Positions 17,366-19,640 of a stretch of DNA of 48,279 nucleotides are shown one piece after another (the first letter of the stretch is position 1; every line of letters begins with the position of its first letter). The stretch is from positions 1-48,279 of the forward strand of contig PMSS01000069.1 in the NCBI GenBank assembly GCA_003167515.1, in the 5' to 3' direction. The position numbers were made by a program, and so were the translations under genes. The notes below the pieces were generated by a model. It made no database searches and was not told the DNA's origin. It saw nothing but the letters and a program-made list of their open reading frames with translations. Source of the stretch: Acidobacterium sp. GTDB lineage: Bacteria; Acidobacteriota; Terriglobia; Terriglobales; Acidobacteriaceae.

Positions 17366-17478
17366 GGTTCCTCCTCGGTTGAGGCGAAGATATCATTGTT
17401 CAAAATGTTTTCGATGTGAAAACACCAGTGAATTAAAGTTGATACCTGGGTAAGATGCGGGGTTGCCATGCGCGCGGC

Positions 17479-17522
17479 GCTATTCCCAGCGGCGGAACAT
17501 GAGCGAGCCGTTGGTGCCGCCG
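17479..17522 (-). repeat. Partial duplicate of the fabF 3' end (last 13 codons plus stop)
   Basis: 41/44 identical to 18395-18438, same orientation; encodes GGTNGSLMFRRWE* versus GGTNGSLIFRRWE* in fabF. Confidence 0.9.
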
Positions 17523-17536
17523 GCGATCAGAAGGGG

Positions 17537-17920
17537 TCAGGCAATCTTGTAGGCGTAGGCATCGTCGATGACGCGATCACCCCACCTTTGTCCGCCCAGG
17601 CGCATCCCGACGACGCTCGCAGCTTTGCCGAACATCTTGCGCAGTTCCCGGACAAAGGGATCGGTCGTCTTCATGATTAGAATCGCGGGGCTCTCGCGCA
17701 CGGTGAAACCTGCCTGATTGAGGGCTCGGATGACTCGGAGGTAGGCATCGCCGGGACTCAGAGGGTCGAGTTTCCGCGAAGCGACCACAAAGCGCCAGTC
17801 CTCGTATTCGGGGAAGTGGACCCAGAGAGCTAGCGCAAGCGGCAGCCCGTTGTCCTCCAGTGCCAGGACGATCTTTTCGCCCTTCTTCAGGTCGAGATCT
17901 ACCAAAGTTGCTTTATCCAT
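17537..17920 (-). CDS. Uncharacterised 127-aa protein, partner of HEPN protein
   Basis: ORF MDKATLVDLDLKKGEKIVLALEDNG...; start lies 22 nt inside the upstream HEPN ORF. Confidence 0.65.
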   Translation of the reverse strand: MDKATLVDLDLKKGEKIVLALEDNGLPLALALWVHFPEYEDWRFVVASRKLDPLSPGDAYLRVIRALNQAGFTVRESPAILIMKTTDPFVRELRKMFGKAASVVGMRLGGQRWGDRVIDDAYAYKIA

Positions 17921-18312
17921 GGGAGTAGCCCGTGATGTTCCTCCATTATGGCATCGAGGAAGGCCCTGCAACTGGCCCGGTCCACAGTCCTGTAGCGGCT
18001 GTCCTCGGACCAGGCCGTAACGATCTCCCAATTCCTTTGGAAGATATCGTCGCCGCTGGACCGTCGAAGGCGGGCATCATCGATTCCCGCAACGACGAGG
18101 AGCTTTCTGAGGTCGTGGGTCCAGGAATCGTCGACGATCTTCTTATCGGGGAATTCGTAGCGGCTGAACCGTTTTGCGATGCAGGCTTTGAGGGCGCATT
18201 CGACCGCGTAGCCCGCAAGATAGTACGCTCCGCTGAATTGTCGCGCGCGCGATAACACCTGAGCTTCGCGGAGCCGAGTGTTTGCCAGCGCCTGCAGATC
18301 GCGTCGGTTCAC
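17899..18312 (-). CDS. HEPN domain-containing protein
   Basis: LANTRLREAQVLSRARQFSGAYYLAGYAVECALKACIAKR...WTHDLRKLL typical of HEPN proteins. Confidence 0.8.
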   Translation of the reverse strand: MNRRDLQALANTRLREAQVLSRARQFSGAYYLAGYAVECALKACIAKRFSRYEFPDKKIVDDSWTHDLRKLLVVAGIDDARLRRSSGDDIFQRNWEIVTAWSEDSRYRTVDRASCRAFLDAIMEEHHGLLPWIKQLW

Positions 18313-18394
18313 TGCGCCGATTGTAAGAAGCTAACGGCGGAAGGAGGGGAGAATTCGGCCGCGACAAGAAACGGGGGTAACGGACCGCGTTGCC

Positions 18395-18438
18395 GCTATT
18401 CCCAGCGGCGGAAGATGAGGGAACCGTTGGTGCCGCCG
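18395..18438 (-). repeat. fabF 3' end, inner copy of the 44-bp direct repeat
   Basis: Matches 17479-17522 (3 mismatches). Confidence 0.9.
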
Positions 18439-19640
18439 AATCCGAAGGAGTTCGACAGCGCGATGTGAATCGGCCCCTTCTGCGGCGTGTTCGGCACGTA
18501 GTTCAGCACGCACTCCGGATCGACGTTGTCGAGATTCGCCGTTGGCGGAGCAGTCTGGTTGATCAGCGCCAGAATCGTGATGCCGGCCTCGAGTCCTCCT
18601 GCGCCACCCAGCAAATGCCCGGTCATGGACTTCGTCGAGCTGACCTTCAATGTGTGACTCGTCGCATGCTCGCCGAAGATGCGCTGCATGGCCTTCGACT
18701 CCACCACATCGCCCAGCGTCGTCGAGGTGGCATGCGCGTTCACGTAGTCCACCTGTTGCGGCTCGATCTTCGCGGACTTCAGAGCGTTGGCCATGGCGCG
18801 GAAGCAGCCGTCGCCGTCTACCGGCATGCCTGTGATGTGGTACGCGTCGGCGCTCATCCCGTAGCCGATAATCTCCGCGAGAATCTTCGCCCCGCGCGAC
18901 TTCGCGTGCTCCAGCTCTTCGAGGATCAGAATCCCCGCGCCCTCGCCGACGACAAATCCATCGCGATCCTTATCGAAGGGCCGGCAGGCGTGCGCAGGAT
19001 CGTCGTTGCGCGTCGAGAGTGCCCGCATCGCGGCAAATCCGCCAACGCCCATCGGTGTGATCGCCGCCTCCGAGCCGCCTGCGATCATCACATCGGCGTC
19101 GCCGCGCTCGATGATCCGATACGCATCGCCAATGGAGTGAGCGCTGGTAGTGCAGGCGGTCGCGGTCGCCTCGTTCGGACCCTTCGCGCCATAGCGAATG
19201 CTCACCTGTCCTGCCGCCAGGTTGATGATGGCTGCCGGTATGAAAAAGGGAGAGATCTTGCGCGGGCCGCCCTGCAGCATATTGTTGTGCTCGCGCTCGA
19301 TAACGTCGAATCCGCCGATGCCCGAGCCGATGAAGACGCCGACCCGTTCGGCATTGGCCGGCGTGACCTTGAGCCCGGAGCTCTCCATCGCCTCGTGCGT
19401 CGCCGCCAGCGCCAGATGGATAAAGCGTCCCATCTTGCGCGCTTCCTTCTTGTCCACGAATTGCAGAGGGTCGAAGTTTTTAACTTCGGCGGCGAACGTG
19501 ACAGAAAAGGCGGTGGTGTCGAAGCTCGTGATCGTGGCGATCCCGCTTTTTGCCGCCAGCAGGTTGTTCCAGATCTCGGGAGCTGTATGGCCTACGCCGG
19601 ATATCAGCCCGAGCCCGGTGACAACGACACGTCGTTGCAA
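18396..19640 (-). CDS. fabF: Beta-ketoacyl-ACP synthase II
   Basis: RRVVVTGLGLISGVGHTAPEIWNNLLAAKSGI; ACTTSAHSIGDAYRII; NAHATSTTLGD; SNSFGFGGTNGSLIFRRWE. Confidence 0.96.
   Translation of the reverse strand: MQRRVVVTGLGLISGVGHTAPEIWNNLLAAKSGIATITSFDTTAFSVTFAAEVKNFDPLQFVDKKEARKMGRFIHLALAATHEAMESSGLKVTPANAERVGVFIGSGIGGFDVIEREHNNMLQGGPRKISPFFIPAAIINLAAGQVSIRYGAKGPNEATATACTTSAHSIGDAYRIIERGDADVMIAGGSEAAITPMGVGGFAAMRALSTRNDDPAHACRPFDKDRDGFVVGEGAGILILEELEHAKSRGAKILAEIIGYGMSADAYHITGMPVDGDGCFRAMANALKSAKIEPQQVDYVNAHATSTTLGDVVESKAMQRIFGEHATSHTLKVSSTKSMTGHLLGGAGGLEAGITILALINQTAPPTANLDNVDPECVLNYVPNTPQKGPIHIALSNSFGFGGTNGSLIFRRWE

Follow-up and report, generated by a model that had tools for sequence, protein, structure and literature searches.

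A widespread two-gene module of a PF05168 HEPN protein and a partner of an unnamed family

Among predicted toxin-antitoxin systems, HEPN-MNT is described as the most abundant, and PF05168 modules with a linked MNT are classed as such systems (PMC7641770). The window analyzed here, a 48,279-nucleotide stretch of DNA from Acidobacterium sp., encodes a PF05168 HEPN protein whose gene overlaps that of a protein from an unnamed family. What is this partner, and do the two proteins act together? A preliminary description of the locus proposed that the pair may be a variant of toxin-antitoxin or defence modules in which the partner is of a new family. We found that the pair is a widespread two-gene module, portable across many bacterial phyla and E. 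coli prophages.

Overlap and pairing of the two genes

Both genes are located on the minus strand. The HEPN gene (17899..18312) starts with GTG and encodes 137 residues. The partner gene (17537..17920) starts with ATG and encodes 127 residues. The sequence places 22 nucleotides in both genes (17899..17920, minus strand). This overlap, already reported in the preliminary description, is exact, with bases 17899-17920 belonging to both reading frames. The HEPN gene ends with ..CCA TGG ATA AAG CAA CTT TGG TAG and the partner gene begins with ATG GAT AAA GCA ACT TTG GTA G... The partner ATG is composed of the last base of HEPN codon 131 and the TG of Trp132 (..A-TGG..), and the TTG-GTA of partner Leu6 and Val7 comes from reading HEPN Trp137 and the stop codon in another frame. 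Trp132 is kept in 73 of 74 HEPN homologues and Trp137 in 67 of 74, and the overlap is therefore locked. The near-invariant L6 and V7 of the partner were rejected as functional evidence, since both are dictated by HEPN Trp137 and the stop codon. The partner segment carrying them is predicted to be disordered, and residues 1-7 have low confidence in the AlphaFold2 model.

Of 129 loci, 118 have an overlap of exactly 22 nt, which is common to 85 non-redundant partners. Those of the departing loci that were examined are frameshifted or shifted versions, with the partner still there. At L039 the partner was not found and the HEPN match is located at a contig edge, and L044 has a diverged reading frame with the same overlap. 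HEPN precedes the partner in every ordered locus.

Among 100 related genomes, HEPN is present in 19 and the partner in 17, and all 20 partner sites have HEPN alongside. A search of viral contigs with the partner profile gave no match, and HEPN was therefore taken as the bait. The HEPN-fetched set contains 113 loci, 33 in viral contigs and the best 80 of 320 in a species-level genome collection. These best 80 of 320 include HEPN homologues in at least seven phyla. The main groups are Acidobacteriota, Cyanobacteriota, Planctomycetota, Bacteroidota, Pseudomonadota, Thermodesulfobacteriota and Chloroflexi, with single records in Armatimonadetes, KSB1 and Myxococcota. A hold-out partner profile, for which only 12 sequences from the class of the window were used, recovered the partner in 111 of the 113 loci at E <1e-3. 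The preliminary description had allowed for a HEPN that occurs alone in most relatives; in this co-occurrence survey it does not occur alone.

Both genes are under purifying selection, with dN/dS values against the nearest relative of 0.16 for HEPN and 0.11 for the partner when the overlap is excluded. The distance matrices of the two proteins are correlated (Mantel r 0.51; null maximum 0.10 in 500 permutations). Mean column identity over 74 sequences is 50% for HEPN and 30% for the partner. The fixed overlap, the purifying selection on both genes and the correlated matrices indicate that the pair is not due to chance. A type II-like toxin-antitoxin layout is observed: the two genes are small, co-directional and overlapping, their pairing is near-obligate, and the unit is patchy and mobile.

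Several metagenome-assembled genomes contain broken copies. The partner is frameshifted and HEPN intact at L082 (genome G001), and HEPN is interrupted and the partner intact at L117 and L157. Assembly error is possible in these cases.

Structural and sequence features of HEPN and its partner

The window HEPN matches PF05168 with an E-value of 2.4e-5 (24.9 bits, cut-off 22). Its predicted model folds as HEPN (pLDDT 96.6), and the best PDB neighbours are the HEPN proteins ST0689, TT1696 and AF0298. The profile match, the all-helical fold and an invariant Ex3K in helix 2 (E38-x3-K42) are the hallmarks of the HEPN superfamily. Thirteen residues are invariant in the 74 homologues: R13, L20, Y31, G34, Y35, E38, K42, P55, H66, L71, W101, R106 and Y107. 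None of the 74 has a histidine at the spacing required for an Rx4-6H RNase motif at R106-Y107. R-x4-6-H is found anywhere in 28 of 74, compared to a mean of 36 in shuffled sequences. These counts are in line with the preliminary description, which saw no clear Rx4-6H motif.

PF05168 proteins often lack the Rx4-6H histidine, yet keep another conserved histidine that could serve, and AbiV keeps an alternative conserved histidine at the same position (Anantharaman et al. 2013, PMC3710099). A HEPN that lacks Rx4-6H can still be toxic, perhaps through a non-catalytic action (PMC3710099). E38/K42, H66 (in THDL) and R106-Y107 line up with their counterparts in MNT-linked PF05168 HEPNs that the same genomes encode (hhalign E 6.6e-5). 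These residues appear to form the alternative site that has been noted in PF05168 and AbiV. Catalysis by HEPN is plausible from its sequence, because E38/K42, H66 and R106-Y107 are kept, an alternative histidine occurs in PF05168 and AbiV, and PDB entry 9bj6 names AbiV as an RNase of a two-component antiphage system.

AbiV of Lactococcus is similar to HEPN in having no Rx4-6H and an alternative conserved histidine at the HEPN-T position (PMC3710099 Table 1), and its structure (9bj6) is a weak fold neighbour of the HEPN model. However, AbiV chains are longer and have no sequence match, and no partner homologue was identified there. The window HEPN also scores against PDC-M28A, a PADLOC candidate (E 8.6e-7), whereas the partners of all subgroups match no PDC-M28 model. 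PDC-M28B was rejected as an identity for the partner, and the PDC-M28A match probably reflects the shared HEPN family only. A second HEPN subgroup, of the GYAVELALKARIC type (L038, L043, L044 and L045), has more diverged partners, whose overlap with HEPN is again 22 nt or else 4 nt. The family probably extends beyond what was surveyed.

Searches of Pfam, PADLOC, NCBIfam and PHROGs gave no match for the window partner, and no PDB sequence matched it in a meaningful way. Across 74 diverse members of its family, Pfam gave scattered weak matches, the best with an E-value of 0.0076 and each Pfam family matched by at most two members. Conserved residues are G14, L21, A31, W33, W42, Y60, R107, D120 and Y124. 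The AlphaFold2 model is confident (pLDDT 90, pTM 0.84), with a predicted alpha-beta-beta-alpha-beta-alpha core followed by a C-terminal beta-hairpin. Foldseek found nothing significant for it (best PDB E 0.017). Matches resembling BolA, KH, RimP, MntA and RsfS all have query TM-scores of about 0.43 or lower.

The preliminary description had found no MNT motif in the partner, and the family agrees. GSx10DxD is present in 3 of 74 members and judged spurious there. A diverged MNT was rejected, as the motif is absent and hhalign against local Polbeta proteins was null (probability <0.5%). The weak structural matches to MntA rank beside those to BolA, KH and RimP, and no MNT identity is claimed from them. 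RsfS was rejected by a null hhalign profile comparison (probability <0.5%). The BolA family is absent from 41 related genomes.

Partners at L014, L016-L018, L041 and L042 are 191-215 residues long, with about 70 additional residues at the C-terminus; this region of the L016 partner, the one scanned, has no Pfam match. On a Deinococcus plasmid (L161:5381-6763), the partner domain is fused to a C-terminal DUF3800.

Class II of HEPN-MNT (HepT-MntA, type VII) is among the closest known systems. It is likewise a two-gene operon with a PF05168 HEPN, the E..K, THDL and RY elements align, and Rx4H is missing from HEPN in both (PMC7641770). In contrast, the partner in our pair is not MNT, with no GSx10DxD and no profile similarity. 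The gene order also differs. HEPN is upstream here, whereas MNT is upstream in a canonical module on contig C470 of the host genome (G000) and generally (PMC3710099; PMC7641770). For L. pneumophila, however, a HEPN-MNT operon has been described, with 8 bp of overlap. Judged by these sequence features, our pair is not HEPN-MNT, because neither its partner nor its gene order is that of HEPN-MNT. No description of it was found in searches of open-licence papers.

Carriage, insertion sites and expression signals

At 99% identity or higher, the pair is present in 190 of 5,426 complete E. coli genomes. It is annotated as 'HEPN domain-containing protein' and 'hypothetical protein' among the entries listed. 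The accessions of the E. coli prophage pair are WP_001038620 and WP_000520500. The E. coli E2865 copy belongs to a lambdoid prophage at tRNA-Arg, where it occupies the nin region with replication protein P on one side and ninE/rusA on the other. Two copies from the 190 genomes were examined, and both reside in the nin region of a lambdoid prophage. Together with the 33 viral contigs, these two copies indicate carriage by prophages as accessory cargo. The prophage at L163 (E. coli 2013C-3342) is without its integrase-to-replication region and the pair is still intact. The pair is also found on Klebsiella phage Kp4864-1 and on an Acinetobacter johnsonii plasmid. The prophage forms belong to phrog_5737 (HEPN, E 9e-96) and phrog_5760 (partner, E 4e-90), both families without assigned function; the window partner falls short of phrog_5760.

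Within the genus of the window, the pair is inserted cleanly, with fabF on one side and a SnoaL-like gene on the other. The order fabF-pair-SnoaL-like gene is found in G000, G004 and G005, and the two flanking genes are directly adjacent, with the pair absent, in G003, G007 and G011. The insertion directly follows the native fabF (18396-19640, minus strand), whose 3' end (18394..18438, minus strand) marks the near boundary. A second copy of this 3' end, 93% identical over 45 nt (17478..17522, minus strand), is located just past the partner at the far boundary. The upstream gene end is similarly repeated in G005 (36 nt at 92%) and L079 (36 nt). No recombinase was identified within the unit. The duplicated gene-end layout suggests an unexplained cassette insertion by a unit without a recombinase of its own. 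Short exact repeats of 28 and 18 nt are laid out as in the window at L017 and L045, respectively. At L138, in a deltaproteobacterial metagenome-assembled genome, the pair is bracketed by two copies of a 76-nt imperfect direct repeat, one 311-386 nt ahead of HEPN and the other 472-546 nt beyond the partner. The repeat contains a palindrome and is perhaps a mobile-cassette site.

The host genome contains two more diverged HEPN copies, on contigs C396 and C41, and its canonical MNT-then-HEPN module provides a natural comparison. Elsewhere, the chromosomal neighbours are ordinary metabolic or housekeeping genes, and no association of the chromosomal copies with defence islands was found. Among 128 neighbour reading frames from 40 loci, surveyed without a matched control set, no clustering of defence genes was found. 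Neither a third gene nor any defence gene is repeatedly found next to the pair in this set, and the PADLOC matches are each in a single member and mostly to generic proteins.

A -10-like hexamer, TACAAT (18320..18325, minus strand), ends 7 nt before the HEPN GTG and may be part of a leaderless promoter. Of 117 loci from several phyla, 23 have TANNNT at its peak position of -12 with respect to the HEPN start, and 14 have a Shine-Dalgarno-like tetramer in the usual window before HEPN. A simple sigma-70 scan upstream of HEPN found no -35 and no full promoter. These signals suggest that the unit often has a promoter of its own, from which HEPN would be transcribed without a leader.

Possible functions of the pair

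With qualifications, the reading first proposed is the best of those considered: the pair would be a toxin-antitoxin or defence module of a variant kind, whose partner represents a new family. The partner belongs to no known MNT or antitoxin family, and the new family stands. A local variant does not, as the unit is widespread in prophages, plasmids and many phyla.

We give an even chance to a mobile two-gene module in which the two proteins act together. It is supported by the near-obligate pairing, co-evolution, purifying selection, mobility and the residue match to MNT-linked HEPNs. The naming of AbiV as an RNase in 9bj6 and the treatment of MNT-linked PF05168 modules as toxin-antitoxin modules (PMC7641770) are consistent with it. 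The sequences suggest that the pair is most likely an RNase-type HEPN effector and a cognate non-MNT regulator. We infer toxicity and defence, and a toxin-antitoxin or defence function would be the best explanation, with confidence about evenly balanced.

In such a module, the operon would be transcribed from its own promoter just upstream of HEPN, and the partner would be made by translational coupling through the fixed overlap, linking the amounts of the two proteins. They would form a complex, in which the non-MNT alpha/beta partner may keep HEPN inactive by binding and not by AMPylation of a HEPN tyrosine, a mark of type VII systems. When the balance is disturbed, for instance by phage infection, HEPN would act on RNA through E38/K42, H66 and R106-Y107, which may stop growth or phage production. 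A bolder version is tentative and has well below an even chance. Here the pair would be a new type of phylum-spanning, prophage-borne anti-phage or superinfection-exclusion system, with an alternative-site (E38/H66/R106) RNase HEPN and an infection-sensing partner of an undescribed family in a cassette of about 0.9 kb.

Several observations argue against the module reading. Without Rx4-6H, a PF05168 HEPN may lack catalytic activity (PMC3710099). The first gene of toxin-antitoxin operons usually encodes the antitoxin (PMC3710099), and this order is reversed. The chromosomal neighbours are housekeeping genes, not defence islands, and the fold matches of the partner are weak. In G001 a frameshifted partner accompanies an intact HEPN, which would not readily be tolerated with a strong toxin; a sequencing error or an attenuated HEPN is possible there.

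A HEPN without nuclease activity could form an obligate heterodimer with the partner, HEPN binding the substrate or nucleotide and the partner serving as enzyme or sensor. Such a pair would make or sense a small molecule or modify a target, and the partner may have a nucleotidyltransferase-like fold that decayed past recognition. PF05168 HEPNs without Rx4-6H do include proposed substrate-binding subunits (PMC3710099). The element order of the partner and its matches to MntA (E 0.06-0.07), polymerase beta and RsfS, all with low TM-scores, point the same way. However, BolA- and KH-like folds score equally or better, the only GSx10DxD occurrences are the three spurious ones, and the Polbeta and RsfS comparisons were null. 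We consider the heterodimer rather unlikely.

A pair of accessory genes with a regulatory or metabolic role, spreading as a cassette and serving no toxin or defence function, would account for the housekeeping surroundings and the lack of a recurring third or defence gene. Carriage in the prophage nin region and on plasmids, patchy presence at the same locus in congeners, and several divergent copies in one genome are instead typical of conflict modules, in which the HEPN family is recurrent (PMC3710099). The accessory role is improbable. It is very doubtful that the active or phage-sensing role falls to the partner, with HEPN as its inhibitor or scaffold, an arrangement that would fit the usual antitoxin-first order (PMC3710099), the faster divergence of the partner, as in sensors, its DUF3800 fusion and its C-terminal extensions, but the partner has no obvious catalytic constellation and HEPN has 13 invariant residues that include E, K, H and R.

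The HEPN of our module belongs to the same family as that of HEPN-MNT and is joined to a different, unnamed partner in at least seven phyla and in E. coli lambdoid prophages. The protein-family libraries that were searched assign this partner no function. The existence of a ready E. coli version makes the pair simple to test. If it is toxic or defensive, it would bring a new partner family to HEPN biology, and would probe directly whether PF05168 HEPNs without Rx4-6H are catalytic.
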